Below are positions 24,193 to 59,672 of a stretch of DNA of 64,000 bases, piece after piece (the first letter of the stretch is position 1; the number at the start of each line of letters is the position of its first letter). The stretch covers positions 4,293,001 through 4,357,000 of the forward strand of contig NC_015259.1 of the NCBI RefSeq assembly GCF_000192745.1, given 5' to 3'. Below the pieces are notes generated by a model. That model made no database searches. It was not told where the DNA came from and saw only the letters and a list, made by a program, of their open reading frames with translations. This stretch comes from Polymorphum gilvum SL003B-26A1. GTDB lineage: Bacteria > Pseudomonadota > Alphaproteobacteria > Rhizobiales > Stappiaceae. The position numbers and the translations under genes are program-made.

Positions 24193-24216
24193 CCTATGGT
24201 CCTTCAAAACGGTCTT

Positions 24217-24249: not shown

Positions 24250-24271
24250 TGGGCTAGACCTGACAAAGCTG

Positions 24272-30714: not shown

Positions 30715-32712
30715 TCAACCCGCGCGCCGCGGGATCCTTCTGCGATAGGCATGACGTTGGACGGGGGCGCTGATGCTGTCGACAGTCACCACCTGATCTG
30801 GTGACGCTGACTTGTTTTCGTTGCGGCGGATGGGGTCCCGCAGCAGACGCAGCCCGTTGAGCACCACCAGAACCGTTCCGCCCTCGTGACCGATCACTGC
30901 GAGCGGCAGAGGCAGCTCGAAGAACAGCGCGCCCGTCACCAGAATGACCATGGCACCCATGGAGAAGGCGAGGTTCTGCCGAATGATCCGCGCCGTGCGC
31001 CGCGCCAGTCGATGCGCCTCCGCGAGCCGTCCCATGTCTTCCGACAGGAGCGCCACGTCGGCTGCCTGCAGCGCGACATCCGATCCGGCAGCACCCATGG
31101 CGATCCCGACATCGGCACGGGCCAGCGCGGCCGCGTCGTTGACGCCGTCTCCGACGAAGGCGACCTTGCCTCTGGCCGCCAGCTCGCCGGCCATCCGGAC
31201 CTTGTCTTCCGGCAGCATGTCGGCATGGATTTCCCCGGGCTTCAAGCCGAGCTCTTCGCCGATCCGCAAAGCAACCGCGCGGCGGTCGCCGGTCATCATG
31301 ACGATTTCGCCGACGCCGCCTTCGCGCAACGCGGCAAGCGCCGGCGCAGAGGTCGCGCGAGCCTGATCCGCGATGGTGACAGCCCCCATCACCTGCCGAT
31401 CCCGGCCGAAATAGATGACCGTCTCGGTGTCCGCAGCTAGCGCCTGTAGCTTCGGGTGGTCGATTGAGGCGCCCATCTTTGATGCGAGGCGCGGATTGCC
31501 GGCCCACACCTGCCCCTCGCCGTCGTTACCGACGATGCCGGCACTCGGTCGGGTGATCACGTTTGTCACTTGGGCCGGTTCAACATCGCGACTGAGGGCT
31601 TCCTGCCGCACGGCAGCCGCGCTGTGATGTTCCGACTGGGCCTCGAGCCCGGCAAGCAGCGAGAGGAAGCGCCGATCGTCGCCATCGAGCGCCACCACCC
31701 TTGTGACCGAGGCCTTGCCGGTCGTCAGCGTTCCCGTCTTGTCGAAGGCGAAGGTGTCGACCGCCGCCAGCGTCTCGAGCGCGGCGCCGCCCTTGAACAA
31801 CACACCTCCGCGCGCGGCAGCCGACAGGGCGGAAAGAATCGCGGCAGGGACGGAGATCACGATCGCGCAGGGGCTCGCCGCCACCAGCAGAGTCGCTGAT
31901 CGGTAGAGCGCCTCCTCCCAGTCGCGCCCCAGCCAGTAGAAGGCGGCGAAGGCCAGGACGGCTCCGACCATGACCGCGACCGTGTAGCGTTGCCCGAACC
32001 AGGAACTGAAGCGCTCCGATGGCGCCTTGGCCGCCTGCGCCTCGGTCACGAGCGCGATCATGCGGGCGACGGTGCTTTCCTCGATCGTCTTCGTCACGGC
32101 CATCTCGAGCACGCCGTCGAGGTTGACCGTCGCCTCGAAGACCGGGGCGCCGGGTTGTTTGGCGACGGGCATGGACTCGCCCGTGATATGGGCTTCGTCG
32201 AGAGAGCCCCGGCCGCTGACGATCACCCCGTCCGCCGGAACCCGCGCGCCGGGCCGCAGCACCACGACGTCATCCACCTGAAGATCGGCAGCAGGGACTT
32301 CCGAGACTGACCCGTCCGGCGCCTTGCGAAGTGCCGTCTCCGGCCGAAGCTCCATCAACGCCTCGATGGCCCGGCGCGCGCGGCCGAGCGCCCGTTCCTC
32401 CAGTGTCGTGGAGATGCTGAACAGCGTCAGCAGGACCGCACCCTCGAAGGGCGCGCCGACAGCCGCGGCCGCAACGGCGGCAACGACCATCAGCAGGTCG
32501 ATGTCGAGAATGCGCTCTTCCCACAATGTGGTGGCGGCCCGCCATGCGGCGGGCAAGCCGCCTGCCAGATAAACAAGCAAAAGACCTGCGAGAGAGAAGG
32601 AAGCCGCCGTGGCGCCCTGAAGCGGCCATAGCGCGAGAATGGCCAAGAGCATCCCAAGGACGGTGAGGGCCGTCAGCGCGAATGAGCGGTCGATCTGAAA
32701 CGGCTTTCCCAT
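30715..32712 (-). CDS. P1B-type metal-transporting ATPase, SPC type (P1B-4-like)
   Basis: The 665-residue pump has no N-terminal metal-binding domain. It shows the TGES loop (HITGESMPV), the intramembrane motif SPC (VAASPCAIVIS), the phosphorylation site DKTGTLT, and GDGVNDAAAL. The C-terminal segment has HEGGTVLVVLNGLRLL, the signature of P1B-4 pumps that export cobalt, zinc or iron. The ATP-binding HP dipeptide is HH here (SEHHSA). The ATG at 32712 has a GGGAGA site and lies one base after the LysR stop, so the two form an operon. Confidence 0.9.
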   Translation of the reverse strand: MGKPFQIDRSFALTALTVLGMLLAILALWPLQGATAASFSLAGLLLVYLAGGLPAAWRAATTLWEERILDIDLLMVVAAVAAAAVGAPFEGAVLLTLFSISTTLEERALGRARRAIEALMELRPETALRKAPDGSVSEVPAADLQVDDVVVLRPGARVPADGVIVSGRGSLDEAHITGESMPVAKQPGAPVFEATVNLDGVLEMAVTKTIEESTVARMIALVTEAQAAKAPSERFSSWFGQRYTVAVMVGAVLAFAAFYWLGRDWEEALYRSATLLVAASPCAIVISVPAAILSALSAAARGGVLFKGGAALETLAAVDTFAFDKTGTLTTGKASVTRVVALDGDDRRFLSLLAGLEAQSEHHSAAAVRQEALSRDVEPAQVTNVITRPSAGIVGNDGEGQVWAGNPRLASKMGASIDHPKLQALAADTETVIYFGRDRQVMGAVTIADQARATSAPALAALREGGVGEIVMMTGDRRAVALRIGEELGLKPGEIHADMLPEDKVRMAGELAARGKVAFVGDGVNDAAALARADVGIAMGAAGSDVALQAADVALLSEDMGRLAEAHRLARRTARIIRQNLAFSMGAMVILVTGALFFELPLPLAVIGHEGGTVLVVLNGLRLLRDPIRRNENKSASPDQVVTVDSISAPVQRHAYRRRIPRRAG

Positions 32713-32713
32713 G

Positions 32714-33676
32714 TTATCTCCCGGCTGCTGGGGCATGCTCGTCGAGCTTCGATAAGTCGCCGTGCAAAGGCGCATCCATTGCCTCGCGGCTCATGCCCTC
32801 CAGCAGAGGCGCTTCCTTTGCCAATGCCTCGGCCAGGAAGTCGAGAAAAGCCCGGATGCGCGCGGTTTGGCGCAGATCCTCATGAGTCAACAGCCAGAGG
32901 TCGAGGGTGAATTCGTCAGGCAGCGGGGCGATGCGTACGAGATCGGTCTCGAGGTCCGCAAGTCCGCAAGGCAGCGGCGCAAGTCCCATCCCGGCCTTGG
33001 CGGCGGAGAGAGCAGCCGCCACCGAGTTCGTGCGCAGCACCGGCTTCACCTCCGGAAGAAAGCCGGCCATGCGACGGACAAGCGCCTCATGCTCCGAGTC
33101 GAAGCCGATCCAGTTGTGGAGCGAGAGGTCAGGCTCCGGCCGCCGCGCGCGGTAGTCGGCGCTGGCGTAGACGGCAAAGGCGAGCCGTCCGACCCGGCGC
33201 CCGACCAGGGTCTCGGCTGGCGCATTGCCGACGCGCAGCGCGACGTCAACCTCACGCCGGCTGAGGTTCAGGGCGACATTGCCGACGACAAGCTCGACTT
33301 CGATACCGGGATACGCATCCCGGAACCCGGCGAGGTGCCGCGGCAGTAGTCCGAATGCCAGCATGTCGATGGTCGTGAACCGCACGGCGCCGCTGAGACG
33401 CAGATCCTGCCCGGTCACCTTGCGGCTCAGGCTTGCGATCTCCTCCTCGACGCGCAAGGCGCCGTCACGCAGCTCCTCTCCAGCGGGCGTGAGCAGATAG
33501 CCCCCCGGTTGTCGCTCGAAGAGGCGTACCCCCAACGCCTCCTCGAAGGCACCGATGCGGCGAAAGACGGTGGAATGGTTCACGCCGAGCGTTCGAGCCG
33601 CGCCCGAGAGCGACCCGGCCCGTGCCACGGCCAGAAAGACGCGCAAGTCGTCCCAGTTCTCGGCCTTTGCATCCAT
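32714..33676 (-). CDS. LysR-family transcription regulator
   Basis: The 320-residue protein has the LysR winged helix at the N-terminus (DLRVFLAVARAGSLSGAART, LGVNHSTVFRRIGAFEEALG) and an effector-binding domain from about residue 90. It is cotranscribed with the P1B ATPase and divergent from the DUF6448 gene, so it probably controls both. A conserved 28-bp element overlaps its start codon. The ligand is not identifiable; a metal-linked signal is inferred from context. Confidence 0.88.
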   Translation of the reverse strand: MDAKAENWDDLRVFLAVARAGSLSGAARTLGVNHSTVFRRIGAFEEALGVRLFERQPGGYLLTPAGEELRDGALRVEEEIASLSRKVTGQDLRLSGAVRFTTIDMLAFGLLPRHLAGFRDAYPGIEVELVVGNVALNLSRREVDVALRVGNAPAETLVGRRVGRLAFAVYASADYRARRPEPDLSLHNWIGFDSEHEALVRRMAGFLPEVKPVLRTNSVAAALSAAKAGMGLAPLPCGLADLETDLVRIAPLPDEFTLDLWLLTHEDLRQTARIRAFLDFLAEALAKEAPLLEGMSREAMDAPLHGDLSKLDEHAPAAGR

Positions 33677-33691
33677 GCAAGCAAAGCTTTC
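33664..33691 (+). promoter_or_regulatory. 28-bp repeated regulatory element, copy 1
   Basis: The element reads CCTTTGCATCCATGCAAG then CAAAGCTTTC, and includes a TTGCAT-CC-ATGCAA inverted repeat across the LysR start codon. It matches copy 2 (34477-34504) at 24 of 28 positions and lies 102 bp before the DUF6448 ATG. Similarity continues weakly for about 20 bp downstream (TCGCNAATCNC). Confidence 0.6.
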
Positions 33692-33792
33692 AAAAATCGC
33701 CAATCCCGCCGCACTCTCGCACAGTTTACCTTCTTGGTCGAGGCGGGCTCGACCGAGCCGCGCCGCAGATCGACAAGCGAAGGAGCATTCCA

Positions 33793-34353
33793 ATGCGCAG
33801 ACTACTCATGGCAACCGCCGCCCTCGGCCTTCTCGCCAGCCCCGCTTTCGCGCACTGCGACAGCATGGACGGCCCGGTGGTCCAGGACGCGCAGCGCGCC
33901 CTCGAAGCGCAGGACGTGACCCCGGTTCTCAAGTGGGTCACAGCGGAGGACGAGGACGAGATCCGAAGTGCCTTCGACATGACGCTGGAGGTTCGCGAGG
34001 AAACCGATGCCGCCAAGACAGTTGCTGACCGGTATTTCTTCGAAACCCTGATCCGGGTCCACCGCGCGAGCGAGGGCGCGGGCTTCACCGGACTGAAGCC
34101 GGCGGGCAGCGTCGAGCCGGCGATTGCAGCCGCCGACCAGGCTCTGGAGGACGGCAACGTGGAGCCTCTGGCGGAAGAGCTCGCCTCCGCGATCCGGCAC
34201 GGAGTCGAGGAACGTTTCGCGGTAGCTTACGAGAAGCGCCAGACGGCGGAGGACTCCGTCGAGCAGGGTCGCGAGTACGTCGAAGCCTACGTGCAGTTCA
34301 CGCACTTCGCCGAGCAGGCAGACCACCTGGCCGATGCCGGAGCCAGCCACTAG
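33793..34353 (+). CDS. Exported DUF6448 protein
   Basis: The 186-residue protein has a clear signal peptide (MRRLLMATAALGLLASPAFA, cleavage before HCDS) and a helical mature part. The mature start HCDSMDGPVVQDAQRALEA is typical for DUF6448, a family often found beside metal-resistance genes. It is rich in Glu and Asp. The function is unknown; metal binding in the periplasm is possible. It is divergent from LysR and begins after a GAAGGAG site. Confidence 0.8.
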   Translation: MRRLLMATAALGLLASPAFAHCDSMDGPVVQDAQRALEAQDVTPVLKWVTAEDEDEIRSAFDMTLEVREETDAAKTVADRYFFETLIRVHRASEGAGFTGLKPAGSVEPAIAAADQALEDGNVEPLAEELASAIRHGVEERFAVAYEKRQTAEDSVEQGREYVEAYVQFTHFAEQADHLADAGASH

Positions 34354-34829: not shown

Positions 34830-34907
34830 CCTTAATGGTGATCCCGCCGCGCCGCAATCCGGTGCGGCGGATCCACTTCGCAAGAAATGAATGAAAGGAG
34901 GGATGAG

Positions 34908-36857
34908 ATGAGCAGTCTTGTTGCGAATATCAGCGGCGCCATCACACATCCTGCACGGCGACGTTTCTGGCTTACCGTCAGCAGCGGAAGCCTCATCGCA
35001 GTCGGTCTGATCGCGCGCTACGGCTTCGGAATGATCGACCTCTGGTGGGCGCTCATGGTCGCCGCCGCTTTGCTGGCTGGCTCGGACATCGCGGTCCGCG
35101 CCTGGCGGGCGCTGAAGGTCAGGCATCTGAGCATCGAGCTGTTGGTGACGGTTGCCGCCGTGGGCGCGCTGGTGATCGGCGAAGTCTGGGAATCGGCCGC
35201 CGTCACCTTCCTGTTCATGCTGGGTGCGTGGCTGGAGATGCGGACCATGGGCCAGACCCGCGGCGCGCTGAAAGCGCTGCTCGACGCTGCCCCGGCCACC
35301 GCCACCGTCCTGCGGGGCGGCCAGCCGGTCGAGGTTCCTGCCATTGCCGTGCAACTGGGTGAAACCGTGCTGGTCAAGGCTGGCCAGCGTATTCCGGTCG
35401 ACGGAGAGGTGACCGAGGGTACAGCCGCGGTCAGCGAGGCCGCCATTACTGGCGAGCCGATGCCTTCCGAGAAGGCGCCCGGCAGCCGTGTCCATGCCGG
35501 AACCATCGCTGAGAACGGCCTTCTGCGCATACGGGCAACCAATGTCGGTGCCGACACCACGCTGGCCCGCATCATCCAGCGCGTCGAGGAAGCGCAGGAG
35601 GAAAAGGCCCCGAGCCAGCGCATGATCGAGCGCTTCGCGCAGTGGTACACGCCCTCGATCATCGGGCTCGCGGTTGTCGCCTTCGCCTTCACGCAGGACA
35701 TCCGGCTGGCGCTGACCCTGCTGGTCGTGGGCTGCCCCGGCGCGCTGGTGATCTCGACGCCCGTGTCGATCGTCGCCGGTATCGGTCGGGCCGCGCGCAG
35801 CGGCATCCTCATAAAGGGCGGCCAGCATCTGGAAAGCGCGGGGCGGATCGACACGCTGGCGCTGGACAAGACTGGCACGCTGACCGAAGGCAAGCCGCGT
35901 CTGGCTACGGTGATCGCGCTTGACGGCACAACCGAGGACGAACTGCTGCGCTTGGCCGCGACAGCCGAGGCCGGATCGGACCACCCGCTCGGCCGCCCGA
36001 TAGTCGAGGCTGGTCGCAAGCAGGGTCAGCTGCCCACGCCCGAATCGCTCGACGAGCACGCCGGTATGGGTATCAGCGCCCGCATCGAGGGGCGCGAAGT
36101 CGCCGCAGGGAACCGCCGCCTGATGGACAGGCTTGGCATCCCGCTGGGAGCCGAGGGCGAAGCCGCTCTGGGCCGGCTGCTCGAGGCCGGGCAGACGCCG
36201 ATCCTCGTGGCGGCGGACGGAAAGCTGATCGGCTTGCTGGGCATGTCCGACATGGCCCGAGAGGGCGCAAAGGAAGCCATCGCCCGCCTGCGCAACATCG
36301 GCATCGGCCGCGTGGTGATGTTGACTGGCGACCAGCATGGCGCGGCGCATGCCATCGCCCGCGAGATCGGCATCGACGAGGTCCACGCCGGCCTGATGCC
36401 CGAGGACAAGCTGGAGTTGATCCGCAGAATGAAGGCCGATGGCGCGCATGTCGCGATGGTCGGTGACGGCATCAACGACGCGCCCGCTCTTGCGGCCGCC
36501 GATACCAGCATCGCCATGGGCGCGGCAGGCAGCGACGTCGCCATCGAGACCGCAGACATCGCCCTGCTCAAGGATGATCTCGGCAAGATCCCAGAGGCGA
36601 TGGCGATCTCGCGCGCGACGCTTGGCAACATGCGCCAGAACCTGGTCATCGCGCTTCTGACGGTGGCGGGGCTGCTCGCCGGCGTCTTCAGCGGCCATGT
36701 CCACATGGCGGGTGGGATGCTGGTCCACCAGCTCTCGGTGCTGATTGTCATCGCCAATGGCATGCGGCTTCTGCGGGTGCCCGGAGCACCCAGACCGGAC
36801 GCTGCCGCTCGCCGAGGCCGGACTGCCGTTGGGCCCGCAGCCGCCACCAGGACGTGA
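34908..36857 (+). CDS. P1B-type metal-transporting ATPase with CPG motif
   Basis: The 649-residue pump resembles CadA/ZntA-type transporters but lacks the N-terminal HMA domain. It has TGEP (AAITGEPMPS), the membrane motif GCPGALVISTPV, DKTGTLTEG, the HP dipeptide SDHPLG and GDGINDAPAL. The canonical CPC is CPG, so one metal-coordinating Cys is missing, which should change specificity or coordination. AAAGGAGGG five bases before ATG 34908 fixes the start. The end is basic and low-complexity. The substrate is unknown. Confidence 0.9.
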   Translation: MSSLVANISGAITHPARRRFWLTVSSGSLIAVGLIARYGFGMIDLWWALMVAAALLAGSDIAVRAWRALKVRHLSIELLVTVAAVGALVIGEVWESAAVTFLFMLGAWLEMRTMGQTRGALKALLDAAPATATVLRGGQPVEVPAIAVQLGETVLVKAGQRIPVDGEVTEGTAAVSEAAITGEPMPSEKAPGSRVHAGTIAENGLLRIRATNVGADTTLARIIQRVEEAQEEKAPSQRMIERFAQWYTPSIIGLAVVAFAFTQDIRLALTLLVVGCPGALVISTPVSIVAGIGRAARSGILIKGGQHLESAGRIDTLALDKTGTLTEGKPRLATVIALDGTTEDELLRLAATAEAGSDHPLGRPIVEAGRKQGQLPTPESLDEHAGMGISARIEGREVAAGNRRLMDRLGIPLGAEGEAALGRLLEAGQTPILVAADGKLIGLLGMSDMAREGAKEAIARLRNIGIGRVVMLTGDQHGAAHAIAREIGIDEVHAGLMPEDKLELIRRMKADGAHVAMVGDGINDAPALAAADTSIAMGAAGSDVAIETADIALLKDDLGKIPEAMAISRATLGNMRQNLVIALLTVAGLLAGVFSGHVHMAGGMLVHQLSVLIVIANGMRLLRVPGAPRPDAAARRGRTAVGPAAATRT

Positions 36858-37716: not shown

Positions 37717-38661
37717 CTATGAAAACAGTTGTCCGACTCCCAAGCTCCGTGCGTCGCCATTATGGTCGCGCAAGAGGAACAGGGCGTCGAGCCCGCTTCG
37801 TCTTGCGAGCGTCGCGCCTTTGTCCGGCCCAAGCACCATGAGGGCCGTCGCCCACGCATCGGCTTCGGCACAGGTTCGAGCCACGACGGTGACGGAGGCC
37901 GGCGACGCGATCAGCGGCGCGCCGCGCCTTGGGTCCATCGTGTGCGACAGGCGGCGCCCCTGCACCTCGACCCAGTGACGGTAGTCGCCCGAGGTCGCGA
38001 CGGCGGCATCCTGAAGCGCGAGGATCGAATGCGGCGTCCGGCGCTCGGCGTCCGGCGCCTCGACCGCGATGGTCCAGGCTTCGCCGTCCGGCCTGAGGCC
38101 CATTGCACGCATCTCGCCATCGATCCCGACGAGTCCGTCCGAAATCCCATGATCGCGCAGGGTCTCGGCGAGCCGGTCGACGCCATAGCCCTTGGCGATG
38201 CCGTTGAGGTCGAGCTTCAGGGCTGCGGCCTTGCGCACGCGGGCGTCGTCCATCTCCAGCGCCTCATGTGCCGGGCGGCGCGAGGCGGTCATCGCGGCGC
38301 GGATGCCATCCGGCGCGGCGTCCCCGGGGCCGAAGCCCCAGGCCGTCACCGCGTCGCCCATGCCAATGTCGAACGCCCCGCCCGAGGCGCGCCCGATCTC
38401 GATGCCGAGGCGCAGGACCGCAGCCAGTTGCGCGGGCACCGCCACCCATTCTCCCACCGGCGCCGCGTTGAGCCGCATCAGGTCGCTGCCCGCGTTCCAG
38501 GTCGACATCTGTCCGTCCACCTCTTCCACGGCCGCCTGCAGCGCGCCCCGGATTGCCTCCTTGTCGACGTCGGGACCAGCGAAGAACAGCGCGGACCAGC
38601 GCGTGCCCATCGTGGGGCCGTTCAGGGCGACCCGGACCAGTTCAGTAGACATCTTCGACAT
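37717..38661 (-). CDS. apbE: FAD:protein FMN transferase (ApbE)
   Basis: The 314-residue enzyme transfers FMN from FAD onto Thr or Ser of target proteins, using Mg. It has the ApbE landmarks NGPTMGTRWSALF at the N-terminus, DLNGIAKGYGVDRLAE, VGIDGEMRAMG and SGDYRHWVEVQGRRLSHTMDP (in two parts). No signal peptide or lipobox precedes the core, unlike the usual exported form. It overlaps the reductase stop by 20 bp (or 11 bp if ATG 38652 is used). Its likely substrate is the DUF2271 protein of the same cluster. Confidence 0.93.
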   Translation of the reverse strand: MSKMSTELVRVALNGPTMGTRWSALFFAGPDVDKEAIRGALQAAVEEVDGQMSTWNAGSDLMRLNAAPVGEWVAVPAQLAAVLRLGIEIGRASGGAFDIGMGDAVTAWGFGPGDAAPDGIRAAMTASRRPAHEALEMDDARVRKAAALKLDLNGIAKGYGVDRLAETLRDHGISDGLVGIDGEMRAMGLRPDGEAWTIAVEAPDAERRTPHSILALQDAAVATSGDYRHWVEVQGRRLSHTMDPRRGAPLIASPASVTVVARTCAEADAWATALMVLGPDKGATLARRSGLDALFLLRDHNGDARSLGVGQLFS

Positions 38662-40849
38662 ACCGCCCCTCCGCCTTCAGGACTGCCGGGGTCAGCCCGG
38701 CCGGCGCGAGAAACTCGGCCAGCGCATCGGCCACGCCGGCCGCCATGTCGCGTCCGCCGCAGACCATCACACGCGCCCCATTGCGGATGAGTTCCGCGAC
38801 CTCCGTGGCCTCGCCGCGCAGTGCGTCCTGGACGTAATGAGGCCGCGCCCCGCGTGAGACGGCCGTGACCAGGCGTGTCAGGCGTCCCTCGTCCTGCCAG
38901 TCGGGGAAATCCTCGCCGTAGAAGAAATCGCTGTTGGGATGGCGCATGCCGAAGAACAGGTAAATCGGCCTACGGCGCGCGTTGCCGCGCACGAAGCCCG
39001 CGAGCGGCCCGATGCCGGTCCCCGCGCCGATCAGGATCAGCGGCGCCCGACTCCGGCCCGGACGGAAACCGGGGTTGGGGCGGAGAAAGGCAGCGATGGT
39101 GTCACCCGGCTCCAGCGCCGTCAGCTGTCCCGAGCAGAGGCCGCCGGGATGCTTCTTGACCACGATCTCGATGAAGCCGTCGAGACGCCCGGACGCGAGC
39201 GAGTAGAGCCGCGGAACGGCGCCGCCCTCGGGCAGGATGCCGATCAGGTCCCCCGCCTGGAACCGAGCGAACCCGCCCCCGAGCAGCCGCTGCCAGAGCG
39301 GGACGCGTGGAAGCGCGAAGCGCAGGATCGCCGTCGGGGCCTGCACCTCGGCGCCGTAGTCGCGCCGCGAGACAAGGGTCAGCGTGGTCGTTTGCGGCTG
39401 GACCGACTGATGCGACAGCTCGAGTCCAATGCCGAGCACGTCTCCAAGCGCACGACCCCAGCGGGCGAAATCCTGCGGCGATTGCCGGTCGATCGTGTCG
39501 AGCGGCAGAAGCTCGGGCCAACCCTTCGCCTGCGCCGCTGCCGCGACGTCCCTGGCGAAGGCGCACCAGGCCGGAAAGCTGCGGTCGCCGAAGCCGAGCA
39601 CCGCAAGAGGAATGTCCGGCGCGCGCTCGAGCGTGCTCAGCCGGTCGAGAAAGCCCTTCGCCGAGGCCGGCGCCGCCCCGTCGCCATAGGTCGCGGCGAG
39701 CAGGATGATCCGCTCCGCCCGCGCATAGCGCTCCGGCGCGAAGCCCGACATCGGGCCGACATGGACGCTCTGCCCGGCCTCCGTCAGTGCGGCGTGAAGG
39801 GTCGCGGCGAAGCCCCAGGTGCTGCCGCCCTCGCTGCCGACGAGAAGGATCGTCTCCGCCCGCACGGCGGGCTGGTTGCCCCGGATGCGCGGCCGCCCGC
39901 GCCGCCCGGCGAGCCAGACCAGGATGCCGGTCGCGCCCATCGCGGGCACGCCGAGCGCCATAAGCCCGAGCACGAGGCCAAGCGTCGCCGCCCCCTGTCC
40001 GGTGTGCAGCATGTAGATGGTCTCCGAGACGCGCTCCCATCCCGTCAGGTCGGCCCAAGCCAGAAGCGCGCCGGTACCCTGGTCGAGATAGCCGGTGCCC
40101 CGGTCGGTCTTGACCGTGAAGACATCCGTCGCGTCGCCCGGATAGGGAAAGCTCAGCTCGCGCAGCTCGGCGACCGGCGTCTGCCGCAGCGTTGGCATCT
40201 GGTCGAGCGCGAACCCCGTCTCTCCACTGACCTCCGCTGGGGCGACCGGTATGCTGCCGCCATCCGGCAGCAGATCGAACGTGGACGCCGTCATCCAGAG
40301 AGCGGTCGTGGAGGACAGAACGAGGCCGACGACAGCGATCCGGGCGATCTCGACGTGCAGCCGCCCGGCGAGCGGGCCACGCAAGCGCGCAAACCAGTGC
40401 CGCCAGCCGCCCGCGCGGCGCGCGACCAGCGCCGCGCCGGAGAGCGAGAGGATCAGCATCGCGGCAGCCCCTGCGGCCATGGCGATGCGGCCGCTATCCC
40501 CAAGGAAGAGCGAGCGGTGAAGGTTGGTGAGCCAGCGTTCGACCTGGTTGGGGTCGGCCGAGGCCACGCCTTCACCGGTCGCCGGGTCGATCACGGCGGC
40601 TCCCGGCGCGCCCTGATCGAACCAGTAGGCGGTGATGCGACCGGAGGGCGACCGGCGGACCTGCTCGACGCCCGGATAGACGGCCTGAATGCGGCTCGCG
40701 AGTGCAGCGACGGTCAGGCCGGCCTGCGACTGCGGCGCGGCGATGCGCTCGGCCGCGGGGAAGACCGAGAGCGCCGCACCGCTCAGGCTCAGGATGGTGA
40801 GGAGCGCGAGGGCCAGAAGACCCGGCCAGCGATGGAGTGCACGGATCAT
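38642..40849 (-). CDS. PepSY membrane protein fused to flavodoxin and NADPH-type reductase domains
   Basis: The 735-residue protein has an N-terminal PepSY-type membrane region (about 1-325; segments near 5-25, 120-142, 168-190, 290-315), a flavodoxin domain (about 335-470; ILLVGSEGGSTWGFAATL, LAATYGDGAAP), and a sulfite-reductase-type FAD/NADP reductase (about 500-730; RLYSLASG, GLCSGQL, LIGAGTGIGPLAGF, VMVCGGRDMA). It should carry electrons from cytoplasmic NAD(P)H through flavins to the periplasmic side. ATG 40849 has a GAGGGG site; GTG 40864 overlaps the DUF2271 stop. Confidence 0.92.
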   Translation of the reverse strand: MIRALHRWPGLLALALLTILSLSGAALSVFPAAERIAAPQSQAGLTVAALASRIQAVYPGVEQVRRSPSGRITAYWFDQGAPGAAVIDPATGEGVASADPNQVERWLTNLHRSLFLGDSGRIAMAAGAAAMLILSLSGAALVARRAGGWRHWFARLRGPLAGRLHVEIARIAVVGLVLSSTTALWMTASTFDLLPDGGSIPVAPAEVSGETGFALDQMPTLRQTPVAELRELSFPYPGDATDVFTVKTDRGTGYLDQGTGALLAWADLTGWERVSETIYMLHTGQGAATLGLVLGLMALGVPAMGATGILVWLAGRRGRPRIRGNQPAVRAETILLVGSEGGSTWGFAATLHAALTEAGQSVHVGPMSGFAPERYARAERIILLAATYGDGAAPASAKGFLDRLSTLERAPDIPLAVLGFGDRSFPAWCAFARDVAAAAQAKGWPELLPLDTIDRQSPQDFARWGRALGDVLGIGLELSHQSVQPQTTTLTLVSRRDYGAEVQAPTAILRFALPRVPLWQRLLGGGFARFQAGDLIGILPEGGAVPRLYSLASGRLDGFIEIVVKKHPGGLCSGQLTALEPGDTIAAFLRPNPGFRPGRSRAPLILIGAGTGIGPLAGFVRGNARRRPIYLFFGMRHPNSDFFYGEDFPDWQDEGRLTRLVTAVSRGARPHYVQDALRGEATEVAELIRNGARVMVCGGRDMAAGVADALAEFLAPAGLTPAVLKAEGRYVEDVY

Positions 40850-40860
40850 GGCCCAGCCCC

Positions 40861-41331
40861 TCACATGTCGTAGGCGAAGCTGGCGACGTAGCGGCGTCCG
40901 GTCACGGGGGTGCCCGCGCCATCGGTCGTGAGCGGCACCGCCACATCGTTCGGGCTGTCCCGCATGTCCTCGACGGCAGCGTCGATGTGGAGCGTGTAGC
41001 CCGCGTCGAACAGCGCGTCGGCCAGGTCGAGCGTGATCTCGAGCGTGCGGCCCGCGCCGACGCTGGCGCCGGTGATGCCGTTGATCTGCGCGGCGTCGCC
41101 GCCCGTGGCGCGGTACCAGTCGCTCAGATGCTCGTAGTACTTGGACTTGCCGCCGGCCATCCAGAGACTGCCGACATAGGCGCCCGAGGCGTCGGTGACG
41201 TAGAGCGCGAGGTAGGCCCCGTCGCCTCCGTAGGTGTTGAGGGTCGTGGTGAGCGTCACCGGCCGCGCCATGGCGAGACCGGGAAGTGTCAGCGCCGTGG
41301 TCAGCGCAAGCGTTGCGAGAAGCGATTTCAT
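40861..41331 (-). CDS. Exported DUF2271 protein, probable FMN-carrying electron carrier
   Basis: The 156-residue protein has a signal peptide (MKSLLATLALTTALTLPGLA) and a beta-sandwich mature part. Residues 84-90, NGITGAS, resemble the ApbE flavinylation motif (D-x-x-[ST]-G-A-[ST]), with S90 as the predicted FMN site. The gene precedes the PepSY reductase and ApbE in the same operon. The probable role is periplasmic electron transfer between the reductase and an acceptor such as ferric iron; that is inference. Confidence 0.85.
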   Translation of the reverse strand: MKSLLATLALTTALTLPGLAMARPVTLTTTLNTYGGDGAYLALYVTDASGAYVGSLWMAGGKSKYYEHLSDWYRATGGDAAQINGITGASVGAGRTLEITLDLADALFDAGYTLHIDAAVEDMRDSPNDVAVPLTTDGAGTPVTGRRYVASFAYDM

Positions 41332-41369
41332 CGGATGGATCCTTGTTCGGAGAGGGGCTGCGAAGCGGT

Positions 41370-41744
<375 letters not shown>

Positions 41745-41800
41745 GGCAGGGTCTCCTTTCGTCTGCTGAAGACAATCTGGAGAACCGACCTGAGGGCTTG

Positions 41801-41838
41801 CTGACGGCGCAGCGATTTCCGCTTCAGGTTGCCGTCAG
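41801..41838. promoter_or_regulatory. Regulator box before the Asp-rich gene
   Basis: An 8-bp perfect inverted repeat CTGACGGC / GCCGTCAG spans the site. Its right half is part of the 17-mer CTTCAGGTTGCCGTCAG (41822-41838), which matches the complement of 43636-43652 at 16 of 17 positions. It lies about 60-95 bp before the Asp-rich gene start and is a probable site for the two-component regulator at 43730. Confidence 0.65.
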
Positions 41839-41839
41839 G

Positions 41840-41870
41840 AAGAAATGGCCCCGCCGGTGAGAGCGGGGCC
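41840..41870 (-). terminator. Intrinsic terminator after the ferric reductase gene
   Basis: An 8-bp perfect stem GGCCCCGC/GCGGGGCC with an eight-base loop lies 55 bp beyond the reductase stop and reads into ATTTCTT on the minus strand. Confidence 0.65.
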
Positions 41871-41924
41871 AAAAGGCGCAGGCGAGAGCCACACGGCTGG
41901 CGTGGCGATGTGACAGGCCCTTTC

Positions 41925-43274
41925 TCAGGCGAATTCGAACTGCTCGAAGCGGACCCGCCGCGGCATCTGGTTCTGTGCCTTCAGGCCCTTGAGGATCCCG
42001 TCCTTCAGGCCGGTCGGGCCGCAGAACCACAGATCTGCATCCTTGACCGCGAACGGCGCCGCGCTGATCAGGCGCTCGGCCGTGAGTCGGCCATCGCGCG
42101 TCGTGACGACCACCTCGAAACTGAACCTCGGGTTGCGGGCGGCCGCAGCGCGCAGCGTCTCCACCCCGATCGCTTCCTCCTGTGTCCGGACGCAATGGAC
42201 GAGGTGAATGTCGCGCCTCTCCGCCTCGGTCAGGCTTTCCGCCCAGGCGAGGAAGGGCGTGATGCCGATGCCGCCGGCGAGCCAGATCTGGCGCGCACCG
42301 CCCTTGCGGAAGTCGAACCGCCCATATGGGCCCTCGACCTGTACGCGCGTCCCGGTCCGCAAGGTCGCGGGAAGACTCCGCGTCCAGCCGCCCAGCGCCC
42401 GGATGGAGAACGTCAGGGCGCCGTCAGGACGCGGGGCGCTGGCGATCGTGAAAGGGTGCGGCTCGGACAGTCCAGCCTCCGGCGCGCGAACAAAGGCAAA
42501 TTGCCCCGGCCGCCACCGCATGGCCCGACCCATGGGGCTGAGCGTCAGCGTGGTGGTGTCGCCGGTCTGGCTGATCTCGCTGACGGTGAACTCCCGACGC
42601 CGCAGCTGCGGGGCGACCAGCTCGGTGAAGATCCACGCAGCGACTCCGGCGATGCCGAATGTGTTGAGAAGCATCGAGAGCGATGGATCTACCCCCGTCG
42701 GCATGTCGACGAAGAACTGGTGAAAGACCACGATGGCAAACAGGGCTCCCATGAAACGATGGCTGAAGCGCCAGATCTGATAGGGGATTTCCAGCCCGAT
42801 GAAGGGCAGCCGCCGGAACCAGCTGACAGCAATCAGCGCGAGAAGCGCGTTGAAGGCGAACTCGCCCGCCTCCGCACCCAGTTCACCAAGGCCGGTTTCA
42901 CGAACCGTCCGCTCGAAGTCCGGCTCGATCTGCTGATGCAGGATCATCAGGACCATCGCGGAGATGCCCAGCCATTTGTGGACCCGGTACATGCGGTCGA
43001 GTCCGCCGAACAATAGCTCCACCAGAGGCGGCCGTGCGGCGAGGATCAGGGTCTGCGCCATTGCGACAACCGCCGCGGCCCCAACTGCAATGCCGAGCGC
43101 CGCATCCGCACCATAGGGCGCATAGGTGTTGAACCCGAGCAGCGCCGCCAGCAGGCATGGCAGCGCTACCAGCAACGGGCCCATCAAGGGCAGAGGCGAT
43201 ATGACGGGAAGCCGGGGCGGTGTCGGAAAGCCGGGCGCCGGGACATCACCGGCGCGATGCACTGCATCAGTCAT
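41925..43274 (-). CDS. Ferric reductase-like transmembrane flavoprotein
   Basis: The 449-residue protein has six membrane segments in its N-terminal half with paired His ligands for haem (HKWLGISAMVLMILHQQ, HRFMGALFAIVVFHQFF). An FAD-binding domain (GQFAFVRAP, EPHPFTIASAP) and an NAD(P)-binding domain (LAGGIGITPFLAWAE, WFCGPTGLKDGILKG) follow. It resembles ferric reductase/NADPH oxidase-type proteins that move electrons outward across the membrane. Its start overlaps the PepSY gene by 8 bp. Confidence 0.92.
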   Translation of the reverse strand: MTDAVHRAGDVPAPGFPTPPRLPVISPLPLMGPLLVALPCLLAALLGFNTYAPYGADAALGIAVGAAAVVAMAQTLILAARPPLVELLFGGLDRMYRVHKWLGISAMVLMILHQQIEPDFERTVRETGLGELGAEAGEFAFNALLALIAVSWFRRLPFIGLEIPYQIWRFSHRFMGALFAIVVFHQFFVDMPTGVDPSLSMLLNTFGIAGVAAWIFTELVAPQLRRREFTVSEISQTGDTTTLTLSPMGRAMRWRPGQFAFVRAPEAGLSEPHPFTIASAPRPDGALTFSIRALGGWTRSLPATLRTGTRVQVEGPYGRFDFRKGGARQIWLAGGIGITPFLAWAESLTEAERRDIHLVHCVRTQEEAIGVETLRAAAARNPRFSFEVVVTTRDGRLTAERLISAAPFAVKDADLWFCGPTGLKDGILKGLKAQNQMPRRVRFEQFEFA

Positions 43275-43584
43275 CGTCGCCTCCCTCTCGGTTCCGGTCG
43301 CGCCGATCGCCCTCGTCGTCCTCGTATTCGATCTCGATCACCTCCAGCGTGGCCGGGTGGACCGTCACCTCGATCGCGCGCCCTTCGGCATCCCTGCCGT
43401 CGATCTCGTAGCAGCCGTCGTCGATCTTGATGCGGCGCACCGTCCAGCCGTTGCCCTCGGCCAGCCGGGCGACGGCGTCGCGCGGCTGCCAATCGGCCAT
43501 CGGCACGAAGCAGTCGTCGTCCGCCAGTGCGACGCCGGCCGGGAAGACGGCGAGAAAGCCAAGAATTGTCAATGTCTTCTTCAT
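43267..43584 (-). CDS. Exported PepSY-domain protein
   Basis: The 105-residue protein has a signal peptide (MKKTLTILGFLAVFPAGVALA, cleaved before DDD) and a PepSY domain: VARLAEGNGWTVRRIKIDDG, CYEIDGRDAEGRAIEVTVHP, then TLEVIEIEYED. Its acidic tail ends in GGDDD. PepSY proteins of this size are often periplasmic partners of reductases or sensor kinases. It leads the two-gene operon with the ferric reductase, divergent from the response regulator. Confidence 0.88.
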   Translation of the reverse strand: MKKTLTILGFLAVFPAGVALADDDCFVPMADWQPRDAVARLAEGNGWTVRRIKIDDGCYEIDGRDAEGRAIEVTVHPATLEVIEIEYEDDEGDRRDRNREGGDDD

Positions 43585-43635
43585 GGGCCAAACTCCTCGT
43601 CGCTCGCCTCTTGATGCACTTCATGCGCGGCGAAG

Positions 43636-43685
43636 CTGACGGCAGCCTGAAGGGGCTCGGCCCATCGGCTTCAGCTTCGCGTCAG
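43636..43685. promoter_or_regulatory. Regulator boxes in the divergent PepSY/response regulator promoter
   Basis: CTGACGGCAGCCTGAAG (43636-43652) and CTTCAGCTTCGCGTCAG (43669-43685) form an imperfect inverted pair, 13 of 17 matching. The first is the complement of the 41822-41838 box with one mismatch. Placement between divergent genes suggests binding by the response regulator to control both directions. Confidence 0.65.
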
Positions 43686-43729
43686 TCAGACGGATCATGG
43701 AGGGTCATCGGGACAGGACGGGGACGACC

Positions 43730-44389
43730 ATGCGCATACTGCTGATCGAGGACGACACGACACTCGGCGCGGCCGTGCGCGACCAGATCGCAGCCGATGG
43801 CCAGTCGGTGGACTGGGTCACGCGGCTCGATGCGGCACGCGACGCGATCGGTTCAACCTCCTACGACCTTATCCTGCTCGACCTCATGCTGCCGGATGGG
43901 CGCGGCATCACCTTCCTCAAGGGCCTGCGCGCGAGGGGCGACGTGACCCCAGTCATCATTCTGACCGCGCTCGACCAGGTGTCGGACAGAATCGAGGGGC
44001 TGAACGCGGGCGCTGACGACTACCTCGTGAAGCCCTTCGACCTCGCGGAACTGTCGGCCCGGATCGGCTCGGTCGCCCGACGCTACAGCGGTAACCCGAA
44101 CCCGATCCTGACCCACGGGGCGCTGGACATCGACCTCGCCGCGCGCAGCGTGCATCGCGATGGCAGGCCGGTGCCGCTGACGGCGCGGGAATGGGCGCTG
44201 TTCGAGGCCTTCCTCGCGCGCCCGGGGCAGCTTCTGTCCAAGGCGCAGCTGGAGGAGAAGCTCTACGCCTTCGACGCCGAGGTGGAGAGCAACACCATCG
44301 AGGTGCATGTCAGCCGCCTGCGCAAGAAGCTTGGGACTTCGGTCATCGAGACCGAGCGCGGCATGGGCTACAGGCTCGGCCGTCCATGA
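43730..44389 (+). CDS. OmpR/PhoB-family response regulator
   Basis: The 219-residue protein has a receiver domain with acidic pocket EDD (residues 7-9), phospho-acceptor D51 (LILLDLMLPD) and VKPFD Lys near residue 100. A winged-helix output domain (PVPLTAREWALFEAFLARPG, NTIEVHVSRLRKKLG, ETERGMGYRL) follows. The ATG at 43730 gives the normal start; upstream codons overlap the regulator boxes. It overlaps the kinase gene as ATGA, so the two are cotranslated. Confidence 0.93.
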   Translation: MRILLIEDDTTLGAAVRDQIAADGQSVDWVTRLDAARDAIGSTSYDLILLDLMLPDGRGITFLKGLRARGDVTPVIILTALDQVSDRIEGLNAGADDYLVKPFDLAELSARIGSVARRYSGNPNPILTHGALDIDLAARSVHRDGRPVPLTAREWALFEAFLARPGQLLSKAQLEEKLYAFDAEVESNTIEVHVSRLRKKLGTSVIETERGMGYRLGRP

Positions 44390-45744
44390 AATGGCCCGCG
44401 AGCCTTCAGGGCCGACTCGGCCTGTCGCTTGGCCTCGCGCTGACGGTGCTGTGGCTGCTGGCTGCGACGGTGACGGCCGTGATCGTGCGGGGCGAGTTGG
44501 AAGAGGTCTTCGACAGCGCGCTGCGCGAAACGGCGGAGCGGATCCTGCCGCTGGCTGTGACCGATATTGTCGGGAGGGAAGATCAGGGAGTGACGCAACG
44601 GCTTGCGCCCATCCGGGAGCATGACGAGCTCTTCACCTACATCGTCCGCGATGGCGAGGGACGCATCCTGCTGCAATCTCATGCGGCCGACCCTGCCGTG
44701 TTCCCGCCTTGGGACGGTCCGGGGTTTCGGCAGACCGCCACCCACCGGCTCTACAGCGACGCGGCGCTTCAGGACACGATCCGGATCACCGTGGCCGAGC
44801 CGCTGGCCCATCGCGCGTCGGTCGCGCGGGAGATCCGGATGGGCCTGGGCCTGCCGCTGCTGGTCGTCCTGCCGGTCGCGCTTGTGGCCATCATCCTGGC
44901 GGTCCGCTTCAGCCTCGATCCCCTGCGCCGGTTTCGGTCGCGGCTCGAGGCGCGCGGCGCCCGCGACCTGTCGGAGGTTCCCGCCGAAGGACTGCCGACG
45001 GAGATCGGCCCGCTGGCCGAAACCCTGAACAGCCTTCTGGCCAGACTTCGTGAGGCGTTCGAGGCCGAACGCAGCTTCGCCGCCAACGCCGCTCACGAGT
45101 TGCGGACACCGCTGGCGGGCGCCATCGCGCAGGCGCAGCGGCTTCGCTCCGAGACGAGCGAGCCCGTTACCGAAGCGCGCGCCGCGGAGATCGAGGCGAC
45201 GCTCAAGCGCCTGACCCGGCTTTCCGAACGCCTCATGCAGCTTGCGCGGGCCGAAGGCGGGCGGCTGCGGATGGACCGGAGCGGGGACCTGAGGGCGGTC
45301 GCCCGCGTGGTGGTGGACGATCTTGAGCGCGCCAGCACGAAGGACCGCATCGCGCTGACGCTGCCGAGTACAGCCGTCATGTCCGACATCGATCCCGACG
45401 CCTTCGCCATCCTGTGCCGCAACCTCGTGGAAAACGCGCTCCGGCACGGAGCCGAGAATACGACGGTCCAGGTTGCGTTGACCGCCGACGGACTGCTTTC
45501 CGTCGCGAACGACGGGCCGGTCCTGCCACTCAACACTCTCGACCGCCTGACGGCGCGCTTCGAACGGGCGAACGCGAGTGCCGACGGCAGCGGGCTCGGG
45601 CTCGCCATCGTCGCCGCCATTGCGGACCGGATCGGTAGCTCGCTCGTTCTGGAGTCGCCGCGTCCGGGTGCATCTTCCGGTTTCCAGGCGTCGCTCAGGT
45701 TGCCGACCGATGGCCAGGACCCTCCTGCGAGGCGCGACGCGTAG
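44386..45744 (+). CDS. Two-component sensor histidine kinase
   Basis: The 452-residue kinase has two membrane segments (about 13-34 and 152-174) framing a periplasmic sensor of about 115 residues, a HAMP-like linker, the H-box FAANAAHELRTPLAG with H237, and an ATPase domain with NLVENALRHGA and GSGLGLAIVAAIADRIG. It resembles QseC/CusS-like kinases. Its neighbours suggest it senses metal or redox state of the envelope. Its stop lies 21 bp from the stop of the convergent prophage spanin gene. Confidence 0.92.
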   Translation: MKWPASLQGRLGLSLGLALTVLWLLAATVTAVIVRGELEEVFDSALRETAERILPLAVTDIVGREDQGVTQRLAPIREHDELFTYIVRDGEGRILLQSHAADPAVFPPWDGPGFRQTATHRLYSDAALQDTIRITVAEPLAHRASVAREIRMGLGLPLLVVLPVALVAIILAVRFSLDPLRRFRSRLEARGARDLSEVPAEGLPTEIGPLAETLNSLLARLREAFEAERSFAANAAHELRTPLAGAIAQAQRLRSETSEPVTEARAAEIEATLKRLTRLSERLMQLARAEGGRLRMDRSGDLRAVARVVVDDLERASTKDRIALTLPSTAVMSDIDPDAFAILCRNLVENALRHGAENTTVQVALTADGLLSVANDGPVLPLNTLDRLTARFERANASADGSGLGLAIVAAIADRIGSSLVLESPRPGASSGFQASLRLPTDGQDPPARRDA

Positions 45745-45765: not shown

Positions 45766-46014
45766 TCAACACACCCGCGCCTGCTCCCGCATAACAGCGT
45801 AGTCACTCAGCATTTCAGCGATCGCCGAGTTCTCCGGCAACAAAGCCAGCTCGTCTGCTGCCTGCGCCTGGAACTCCCGGCTGTACTCGACGACCGGCGG
45901 ACACGCCCCTGGCCCACCGCCGTCAGAAGCGCCCGTCGCGCATCCGCTCAGCCAAATCATTGCGAGAAGCAGGGCGACACGCCGCCGCTTCGAGCATCCG
46001 CCTTTGTACGTCAT
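45766..46014 (-). CDS. Outer-membrane spanin subunit (Rz1-like lipoprotein)
   Basis: The 82-residue protein has a lipoprotein signal (RVALLLAMIWLSGC, lipobox LSGC) and a short mature part with CPPVVEYSREFQAQAADELA. It overlaps the i-spanin frame by about 90 bp in another frame, the classic Rz/Rz1 layout. Together they would fuse inner and outer membranes at lysis. ATG 46014 is chosen over an upstream TTG. Confidence 0.85.
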   Translation of the reverse strand: MTYKGGCSKRRRVALLLAMIWLSGCATGASDGGGPGACPPVVEYSREFQAQAADELALLPENSAIAEMLSDYAVMREQARVC

Positions 46015-46180
46015 GAGCCCTCTCAATGGTCTCGAGCTGTTCGGCCAGCCGGCCGGCGCGCTCGCCGGAGCGGCGCAGAGCCAGCAGGAACAGAAGGATT
46101 GCGATGGCAGTGATGACGTAGCGGATCGCCGTGCGCGTCCATGCCGATCCAGCGAGCGTGGCGAAGAGCCCGCAGATCAC
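45923..46180 (-). CDS. Inner-membrane spanin subunit (Rz-like)
   Basis: The 85-residue product has one N-terminal membrane segment (IRYVITAIAILLFLLAL) followed by a charged helical periplasmic part (GERAGRLAEQLETIERAHDV). The GTG start shares a GTGA junction with the M15 endolysin stop. Its 3' part overlaps the lipoprotein gene, identifying it as the Rz partner. Confidence 0.8.
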   Translation of the reverse strand: MICGLFATLAGSAWTRTAIRYVITAIAILLFLLALRRSGERAGRLAEQLETIERAHDVQRRMLEAAACRPASRNDLAERMRDGRF

Positions 46181-46851
46181 CGCCGCCCCCGGCGCCAGTC
46201 ATCGAGGCGGGCGTAGATCGTGACTGCGATGCCCCCGAGCGCGACGGCGATGAACACCCAGCGGAGCGTATCGAGATACGGCACCAGCGGCAGGATGGCG
46301 GTCTGGGTCTCGGCCAGGACGCTCTGCGCGATCTCGACCCCGGCTGCGCCCAGCGTCGCCACGCCAGCCGCGCCACCGCCCTTCATGGTGCGGCTGTCGG
46401 CCAAAACCTCGCGCGCTGGTGGCGTTTCTTCGGCGAAGGCAGTCGCCCGAACCGGGAACCGCTCGCCCCACTGCCGCGCGGGCCCGAGATCGACATGGAT
46501 GAACCCCGATCGCGGGTAGAAGCCGAAGCCGAGGAATCCGACCTCGCGCGCCGCAGCCTCGAAGGCCACCGGATCGTGGTTCGCCATGGCGATGTCGAAG
46601 GCGGCGCCGTCGAGATGCTTCGACCGGCCCGCGCCCCCCACGGCACGGTTGTGCTCTGGGCTGCGGTAGGCGGAGCGGACGATCAGCGGCTTGCCCAGCC
46701 GGTCGCGCAGCGCCTGCAGCTTGTCGAGCGCCTCATCGTGGATGCGCAAGCTACCGCTGCCGCGGCAGGCGATCTCCGCAGGCGAGAAGTTCTTCCAACG
46801 CCAGCGGGCGGTCGGCACGTCGCGCCAGTGGTTGAAGGGGGTGGTCGTCAT
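46177..46851 (-). CDS. M15-type peptidase endolysin with C-terminal membrane segment
   Basis: The 224-residue protein has a D-Ala peptidase domain with zinc-binding motifs SKHLDGAAFDIAM (H..D) and FIHVDLG (HxD), preceded by IVRSAYRSPEHNRAVGG. It cuts peptide cross-links of peptidoglycan. A helix and a membrane segment (about 190-212) follow, so the enzyme may be anchored. It precedes the spanins in a compact lysis cassette. Confidence 0.88.
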   Translation of the reverse strand: MTTTPFNHWRDVPTARWRWKNFSPAEIACRGSGSLRIHDEALDKLQALRDRLGKPLIVRSAYRSPEHNRAVGGAGRSKHLDGAAFDIAMANHDPVAFEAAAREVGFLGFGFYPRSGFIHVDLGPARQWGERFPVRATAFAEETPPAREVLADSRTMKGGGAAGVATLGAAGVEIAQSVLAETQTAILPLVPYLDTLRWVFIAVALGGIAVTIYARLDDWRRGRR

Positions 46852-46868
46852 GGCTGGTCTCCGCACAT

Positions 46869-46892
46869 AAAAAAACTCGCCGAACGGCGGGT
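46869..46892 (-). terminator. Intrinsic terminator between DUF6127 and endolysin genes
   Basis: On the minus strand a seven-base-pair stem with one mismatch (ACCCGCC/GGCGAGT, loop GTTC) is followed by seven T residues. It may limit or separate expression of the lysis cassette from the tail genes. Confidence 0.6.
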
Positions 46893-46919
46893 CGGTGGGT
46901 TGAGGATCGGAAGCGCCGG

Positions 46920-47210
46920 TCAGGGACCGTTGCCAAACAGTCTCAGCTTGATGGCAATGCCGGCCATGAGGGCGAGCAGGACGCCGGTGGTGATGATGCG
47001 AACGGCGGTCTGCACGGCCGTCTGCCTGGCCAGCCGAAACCCGGCCAGCAGCGATCGCAGATCGCGGATGTCCTCGGCCGCCTCCGTCCCGTCGAGCCCA
47101 ACCTCATGCAGGGCACGGCGGGCGCCGGCTTCGGCGGCGCGTTCGAGCAGCGCCTCGAACTCGTCGCTCGGCAGACTGACCAGCCTGCCGCTGTCGCGTT
47201 TCTGTTCCAT
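46920..47210 (-). CDS. DUF6127 family membrane-associated phage protein
   Basis: The 96-residue protein begins MEQKRDSGRLVSLPSDEFEALLERA and ends with a membrane segment (VRIITTGVLLALMAGIAI). It is typical of DUF6127, a small gene near fibre and lysis genes in alphaproteobacterial phages. The topology allows a holin-like role, which is unproven. Confidence 0.75.
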   Translation of the reverse strand: MEQKRDSGRLVSLPSDEFEALLERAAEAGARRALHEVGLDGTEAAEDIRDLRSLLAGFRLARQTAVQTAVRIITTGVLLALMAGIAIKLRLFGNGP

Positions 47211-47233
47211 CGTCGTGGTTCTCAAACTGTCGA

Positions 47234-52026: not shown

Positions 52027-52032
52027 GAGAGT

Positions 52033-54651: not shown

Positions 54652-54662
54652 CTGTCGACCCG

Positions 54663-57839: not shown

Positions 57840-57849
57840 GGATGCATCC

Positions 57850-59121: not shown

Positions 59122-59143
59122 GGATAACTCCTGTTCCTGAAGA

Positions 59144-59578: not shown

Positions 59579-59672
59579 TGGTTTTCCTCAGGCTTGGGGC
59601 CAATCCAGGTGATCTCGCCGCACAGAATGCGGCGCGCACATGCACTGGGATGCGAAGAAGGCGAAGGCGGGG

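Follow-up and report, generated by a model that had tools for sequence, protein, structure and literature searches.

According to the text of Meheust et al. (2021, eLife, PMC8238504), a DUF2271 protein is flavinylated by its ApbE, a flavin adenine dinucleotide (FAD):protein flavin mononucleotide (FMN) transferase, through a [S/T]GA[S/T] motif. The same text lists 2833 PepSY-like clusters that hold DUF2271 and records, for the PepSY-like clusters, an NAD-binding domain in 1077 genes, a MsrQ-like gene in 108 clusters and VIT1 in 167. The window analysed here, a stretch of 64 kb from Polymorphum gilvum SL003B-26A1 (C2:4293001-4357000; genome 4.72 Mb), contains at positions 37717-45744 a gene cluster that by its sequence is a member of this published kind. 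DUF2271 as a substrate of ApbE is thus already known, as is the core chemistry. What is new is a modular and regulator-linked variant, equipped with a small exported protein that ends in a conserved tail, and a mismatch between the predicted locations of ApbE and its substrate. Like the published PepSY-like DUF2271 clusters, it combines ApbE, a DUF2271 protein with [S/T]GA[S/T] motif and a PepSY_TM protein; the passages of Meheust et al. considered here do not describe the two-component pair with its promoter sites, the tailed protein, the swappable cytochrome slot and the ApbE without signal peptide that characterize the window group. We speculate that the cluster is a cassette-built periplasmic metal reductase carried on conjugative plasmids, with a constant core, a docking tail attached to unrelated metal-binding bodies (poly-Asp or PepSY), an interchangeable cytochrome and cytosolic FMN attachment by an unexported ApbE, although we consider it quite unlikely that this picture holds in every part.

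Two further systems invite comparison. Insertions in the homologous Caulobacter genes CCNA_03155-03159 lower fitness in the presence of ethylenediaminetetraacetate and the genes are up in iron-defect mutants, as stated in the text of the respective study (PMC11870441). The Caulobacter genes share with our cluster a PepSY-family membrane protein, DUF2271, a flavin-dependent reductase and a link to iron, but they feature a DUF4198 partner and respond together with iron-starvation genes, and an adjacent two-component system is not mentioned in the passages considered. The FoxB/CrpH PepSY_TM reductases, as presented in PMC13038864, resemble the window protein in their PepSY_TM core with conserved histidines; in the window, unlike in FoxB/CrpH, this core is joined to flavodoxin and reductase domains and has a DUF2271 flavoprotein as its partner.

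An original prediction, made from the sequence alone, had named ApbE, a PepSY/flavodoxin/reductase membrane protein, a DUF2271 protein with an FMN site at S90, a ferric reductase-type protein, a PepSY protein and a two-component regulator as constituents of the cluster, and Pfam confirmed every one of them. On the minus strand, apbE (37717..38661, 314 residues, PF02424 at an expectation value (E) of 7.9e-79, N-terminus MSKMSTELVRVALNGPTMGT) is followed, in order of coordinates, by the gene for the fusion protein (38642..40849, 735 residues; PepSY_TM, Flavodoxin_1, FAD_binding_6 and NAD_binding_1 domains by Pfam; refined ATG start at 40849) and by the DUF2271 gene (40861..41331, 156 residues, PF10029 at E 1.1e-34, refined ATG start at 41331). 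The published clusters were delimited by PF03929 or PF16357 within five genes of ApbE, FMN-bind, DUF2271 or DUF3570 and by a signal peptide or lipidation in at least one target gene (PMC8238504, text). Here, PF03929 is found with E 4.6e-31 in the protein encoded between ApbE and DUF2271, and DUF2271 has a signal-peptide-like N-terminus according to our own hydropathy test, which is not SignalP. Upstream of DUF2271 lie the gene for an exported Asp-rich protein of no Pfam family with the conserved C-terminal tail NPAPAGTVAPPQNGLFGNGAPPQVQVN (41370..41744, minus strand) and a gene for a ferric-reductase-like transmembrane protein with FAD/NAD domains (41925..43274, minus strand; PF01794, PF08022 and PF00175, that is Ferric_reduct, FAD_binding_8 and NAD_binding_1, along with FAD_binding_6), in which Ferric_reduct exceeds its cut-off with E 3.4e-13. 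An exported PepSY_2 protein (43267..43584, minus strand, PF13670 at E 3.3e-27) adjoins divergently transcribed two-component genes on the plus strand, which encode an OmpR/PmrA-type response regulator (43730..44389, 219 residues, refined start 43730; identified by Pfam, the NCBIfam models shown all being below cut-off) and a sensor histidine kinase (44386..45744, 452 residues, refined start 44386) with HAMP, HisKA and HATPase domains and a 2CSK_N-like sensor just below cut-off. The cluster indeed has a regulator of its own. Absent from the original prediction were the gene at 41370-41744, the lack of a signal peptide in ApbE, the putative regulator sites and a second copy of the cluster in the same genome (C2:2754267, our locus L014), whose DUF2271 is 92% identical.

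For comparison, we used the best 80 of 313 relatives of the window DUF2271 from a contig search and fetched 60 further DUF2271 loci across the class and phylum. Unless stated otherwise, counts refer to 107 loci comprising the group and its borders (90 of L014-L104 and 17 of L114-L131), many of which are near duplicates and some of which end at contig ends, lowering the gene counts. ApbE, PepSY_TM, DUF2271, PepSY_2, response regulator and kinase are all present in 82/91 loci L014-L104, and all 82 loci holding the six genes show the order and orientation of the window. Such a gene set is far from chance. The [ST]GA[ST] motif occurs in 89/90 DUF2271 proteins, the sole exception being L022; S90 sits in NGITGAS exactly as claimed earlier and is invariant in 37/37 aligned rows. 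Lack of conservation of motif and neighbourhood, which would have spoken against the original prediction, is therefore not what the relatives show. Several further residues occur at frequency 1.0, namely His 11, 116, 170 and 287 of the PepSY_TM protein (87 rows; numbered from GTG 40864 and without mapping onto the FoxB structure), His 99, 113, 172 and 185 of the ferric-reductase-like protein (38 rows), Cys 25 and 58 of PepSY_2 (83 rows) and H240 of ApbE (87 rows). Covalent FMN at S90 is likely by analogy, as the cluster belongs to the published PepSY-like/DUF2271 systems (PMC8238504, text). The DUF2271 fold is predicted with good confidence by AlphaFold (mean predicted local distance difference test 85.3). 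It has no close solved relative, since 0/474 Foldseek matches reached E<=0.001, the best being a NEDD4 C2 domain (E 0.011, TM score 0.46).

We propose the following model, to which we give an even chance as a whole: a sensed metal would induce a chain from NAD(P)H via heme to FMN, and this chain would reduce metal bound to the tailed protein. An envelope signal, likely a metal, would be sensed by the kinase under the probable influence of the adjacent PepSY_2 protein, and the response regulator would bind TTCAGSYTGYCGTCAG sites before its own gene pair, the PepSY_2 gene and the tailed gene. NAD(P)H may then deliver electrons via the reductase and flavodoxin domains to hemes bound in the PepSY_TM part, from where they would move on to FMN covalently attached to S90 of the periplasmic DUF2271 protein. 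The tailed protein would bind the metal, our best guess being Fe(III), with its Asp-rich or PepSY body, and the conserved tail would dock this protein to the DUF2271/PepSY_TM unit such that the flavin can reduce the metal. The second membrane cytochrome, ferric-reductase-like here and b561 elsewhere, might serve as a further point of electron entry.

The first question concerns the place where FMN is attached. On its N-terminus, the cluster ApbE looks cytosolic, whereas its presumed substrate is exported. The protein starts about 14 residues before the conserved GPTMGT, and an in-frame stop is present exactly five codons upstream in 81/88 loci. By our own hydropathy score with a self-set threshold of 1.6, a signal-peptide-like N-terminus was found in 0/88 ApbE (values up to 1.12), 90/90 DUF2271 (1.72 or higher) and 85/85 PepSY_2 proteins; the cytosolic response regulator, serving as control, passed in 0/86 cases at the expected start and in 2/86 if any upstream start was allowed. 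In loci L114-L173, 8/47 ApbE genes reach the threshold. These are four ApbE-DUF2271 fusions, called from frame length and positions (L123, L133, L172, L173), as well as L155 with a lipoprotein-like start, L145, and L144 and L147, both right at the threshold. The lack of a clear signal is thus common, though not universal, among stand-alone ApbE proteins encoded beside DUF2271. The text of a 2025 review (PMC12052999) mentions a cytosolic ApbE that serves a fumarate reductase of the cytosol, and further ones within eukaryotic cells; the Klebsiella enzyme lacks a signal peptide just as ours does, but its soluble substrate is cytosolic while the sole obvious substrate in the window is exported. 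In the passages of open-licence papers that we consulted, we found no description of such a mismatch. We infer that FMN is attached in the cytosol before export via Sec.

The strongest competing explanation, which we regard as somewhat unlikely, places FMN attachment in the periplasm, either because the cluster ApbE, despite lacking a signal, leaves the cytosol by an unrecognised route or because a separate exported ApbE serves DUF2271. The main rival route of this type is offered by the third ApbE of the genome (C2:588286, L113:1441-3003), which has a twin-arginine-type SRRRFL N-terminus unlike the two cluster ApbEs. Several further observations weigh against cytosolic attachment. ApbE is typically periplasmic, and in a thiamine growth test a cytosolic form proved unable to take over from the periplasmic enzyme (PMC12052999, text of the review). 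The A. ursilacus ApbE was assayed as a signal-peptide-truncated construct (PMC8238504, text), which implies that the natural protein has a signal peptide and is exported, and the four ApbE-DUF2271 fusions start in a signal-peptide-like manner. On the other side stand the score of 0/88 for the cluster ApbE, the retention of its gene in 101/107 loci with invariant H240, and the consideration that a plasmid-borne cluster cannot rely on an ApbE of the host. Where FMN is attached by a signal-less ApbE to an exported substrate matters for understanding how periplasmic proteins obtain their flavins, and cytosolic attachment remains our preferred view.

Regulation of the cluster can be approached via a 16-bp pattern. 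In the window, TTCAGGTTGCCGTCAG (41823..41838, plus strand) is situated upstream of the tailed gene, TTCAGGCTGCCGTCAG (43636..43651, minus strand) faces the PepSY_2 gene and a weaker copy, TTCAGCTTCGCGTCAG (43670..43685, plus strand), faces the response regulator gene. With up to two mismatches, TTCAGSYTGYCGTCAG occurs within 200 bp upstream of 87/93 tailed genes (median distance 94 bp) and within 300 bp of the 5' end of the regulator gene in 90/97 loci, whereas four scrambled or reversed patterns gave 0 matches at the promoters of tailed and regulator genes. The site is nearly cluster-specific in the P. gilvum genome: with at most one mismatch, seven copies are present, of which four, among them all three that match perfectly, lie at the two clusters and the other three reside inside open frames, one of which is a LysR-type gene. 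The reversed pattern is found 0 times in this genome. The site is probably the binding site of the cluster's response regulator.

A small PepSY protein next to a two-component pair is a known module, and DbfQ of Vibrio has been described as interacting with the sensor domain of DbfS (PMC12714742, text). The window, too, has a small exported PepSY protein beside a regulator and a kinase, as in DbfQRS and PA2658-BqsRS, namely within four genes of them, and PepSY_2 and the regulator are found together in 97/107 loci. Unlike those modules, ours sits on an electron-transfer operon, and the BqsS-type RExxE motif is not conserved in it.

As to the metal, we think of iron as probable. Outside the core, the loci often encode transporters: of 101 loci holding ApbE, 47 have a P1B-type ATPase plus VIT, 16 the ATPase alone, 2 VIT alone and 36 neither, counted over the fetched stretch, so that some ATPase-only cases are far from ApbE or weak. 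The ATPase motif reads TPCP in 50/59 cases, SPCA in three and CPCA in one, with five other or unread, and an SPC-motif ATPase immediately follows ApbE in L029, L074 and L079. TPC- and SPC-type ATPases as well as VIT move Fe2+ among other ions, which favours iron and, as P1B ATPases and VIT are exporter families, also efflux. Alternatively, the system may reduce copper or another metal bound by the acidic proteins, or may mainly protect the envelope, which we judge unlikely. Supporting it, the PepSY_TM protein CrpH is linked to copper and supports copper enzymes (PMC13038864, text), UipA PepSY domains bind uranyl (PMC8963506, text), and the regulator and kinase resemble heavy-metal cztR/copR and cztS/copS models, albeit below cut-off. 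The case for iron rests on the Fe2+-capable transporters and on the Caulobacter DUF2271 operon, which is tied to iron (PMC11870441, text). Apart from CrpH, three points weigh against our model. Exporter families fit detoxification at least as well as uptake. REHDE and RETAE occur in the kinases of the window and near relatives and match RExxE, which we take to be the BqsS/PmrB-type iron-sensor motif, but the motif is not conserved, with none anywhere in the kinases of the second genomic copy (L014), L016-L021 and many others, and the idea was dropped. Finally, DbfQRS gave no response to added iron (PMC12714742, text).

The tailed gene is located directly upstream of DUF2271 and encodes a small exported protein ending like NPAPAGTVAPPQNGLFGNGAPPQVQVN in at least 93/107 loci, a lower bound as our search expression skips some tails (L021, L061, L115, L124). 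Two types of body precede the tail. A PepSY body is present in 43 proteins and absent from 50. These 50 we call Asp-rich, a term that here denotes lack of a PepSY signature, with L020 the one among them that is not rich in Asp; 49 of them contain an Asp run of at least five. Their median acidic fraction is 0.22 and their longest Asp run has a median of nine, varying from 1 (L020) to 21 across loci, perhaps through repeat slippage. In L021, a single protein carries PepSY, an Asp-rich stretch and the tail. Across the two body types, identity over the last 27 residues averages 81%.

On sequence evidence, the bodies of the tailed proteins are exchanged as cassettes. In five pairs of related clusters hand-picked from the tree, the body was swapped in 5/5. 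Identity is mostly 75-100% in the surrounding DNA and 35-57% over most of the body, and it changes where the tail codons begin. The cleanest case is L102 versus L087 with flanks of 93-100% identity. A tree quickly built from the PepSY_TM protein shows 16 switches of body type, compared with a mean of 30 and a minimum of 25 in 200 shuffles.

The tail itself may be a linker plus docking peptide. Fifteen chosen tails agree without exception at six positions (P, P, N, L, F, P), which are also kept in 20/20 PepSY-bodied proteins down to 48% identity, though the remoter tails of L115, L124 and L130, outside the 15, break some of these positions. A tail profile run against 61 genomes returned nine matches with E<1e-9 in eight genomes, all immediately upstream of DUF2271. 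One extra match (G053, E 4.5e-4) falls inside an unrelated protein and was discarded as a chance match, and the remaining ones had E of 0.066 or worse. Tail divergence is about half that of the Asp-rich body (0.164 vs 0.327). It is conceivable, but in our view doubtful, that the tail is the passive outcome of joints left by homologous recombination, with conserved start codons and tail codons as anchors. Similar DNA indeed bounds the exchanged blocks on both sides. Nor do distance correlations, computed on 73 non-redundant loci out of the 80 that have every gene, single out a partner: they favour DUF2271 only slightly, with 0.79 versus 0.76 for PepSY_2, and within body classes the tail follows its own body just as closely. 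The docking proposal is also not helped by AlphaFold, which renders the tail as a low-confidence coil (block means <=60) and the PepSY body with high confidence. Against a purely passive origin speak the near-invariance of the six residues, from which L115, L124 and L130 depart, the lower divergence of the tail and its occurrence only beside DUF2271 in the 61 genomes. That the tailed proteins are free metal sponges unlinked to the flavin chain, as their acidity, their long Asp runs and their export without a catalytic domain might suggest, is distinctly unlikely, given that the tail always adjoins DUF2271 in these genomes, that the genes share the same kind of promoter site and that a sponge would not need a conserved 27-residue tail. 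If the docking proposal is correct, a conserved tail with swapped bodies would be a natural plug-in device that brings metals to a flavin, and it could help to find out what DUF2271 proteins reduce.

A second variable position is the slot between the PepSY_2 gene and the tailed gene. It harbours a ferric-reductase-like gene in 39/107 loci, a cytochrome b561 gene in 40/107 (an assignment based on PF01292 in the single gene tested) and neither recognised type in 28/107. In the second P. gilvum copy, a b561-type gene occupies the slot. All four combinations of body type and slot type are seen (22, 17, 22 and 15 loci), and the tree shows 12 switches of slot content, compared with a mean of 25 and a minimum of 19 in the shuffles. 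Between L034 and L070, whose PepSY_TM proteins are 98% identical, the slot differs with clear borders. As one of two slot alternatives, the ferric-reductase-like gene is an optional rather than an obligatory step. The earlier claim of a complete route from NAD(P)H to a periplasmic flavoprotein and on to metal therefore stands in so far as parts for a route from cytosolic NAD(P)H to the periplasm are present. It was too simple in overlooking the tailed acidic protein, in treating as fixed a gene that is only one slot option and in not considering that the cluster ApbE has no export signal. An extra exported-looking protein of 168-200 residues and of no Pfam family is encoded between b561 and the tailed gene in L029 (8800-9402) and L054 (8908-9414), and a copy of the 16-bp site was noted just before this extra gene in L029 and L051.

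The cluster is mobile. By DNA, 65 plasmid records match, 48 of them over at least 80% of the query and 51 typed as conjugative; by protein, 97 plasmid records contain a relative, 71 of them conjugative and 38 from one species. In Celeribacter and Ponticoccus, the cluster is found near plasmid partition and replication genes. Among relatives, its distribution is sporadic, with a match in 10/61 related genomes, our own included and one match being weak. Carriage on conjugative plasmids suggests selection under some, probably metal-related, exposure. A phage set searched for DUF2271 yielded no match, so that none of these phages carries the cluster. A near-identical cluster resides in a contig titled Enemella evansiae (L044), an actinobacterium, which was kept in the set and may represent contamination or far transfer.

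Within the window, neither RNA families nor tRNAs were found. The cluster has two P1B-type metal ATPases as neighbours. The one encoded at 34887..36857 (plus strand) has CPG in place of CPC/SPC/TPC, and close relatives with the same CPG are restricted, among the fetched loci, to L026 (93%) and L101 (75%); the other, at 30715..32775 (minus strand), has an SPC motif and is adjoined by a LysR-type regulator gene (32714-33793). VIT-type matches of the genome are located elsewhere than the window cluster. At lower coordinates, a Mu-like prophage extends from 11957 to 26692 with minus-strand matches to Mu F-like (11957-13219), Mu portal (13209-15023) and Mu transposase (24272-26692) proteins. Immediately behind the kinase gene starts a tailed prophage (45766-63534), such that the cluster is placed between two prophages; it has a phage family of unknown function, tail proteins, an endolysin-type peptidase, tape measure, major head and head maturation protease.

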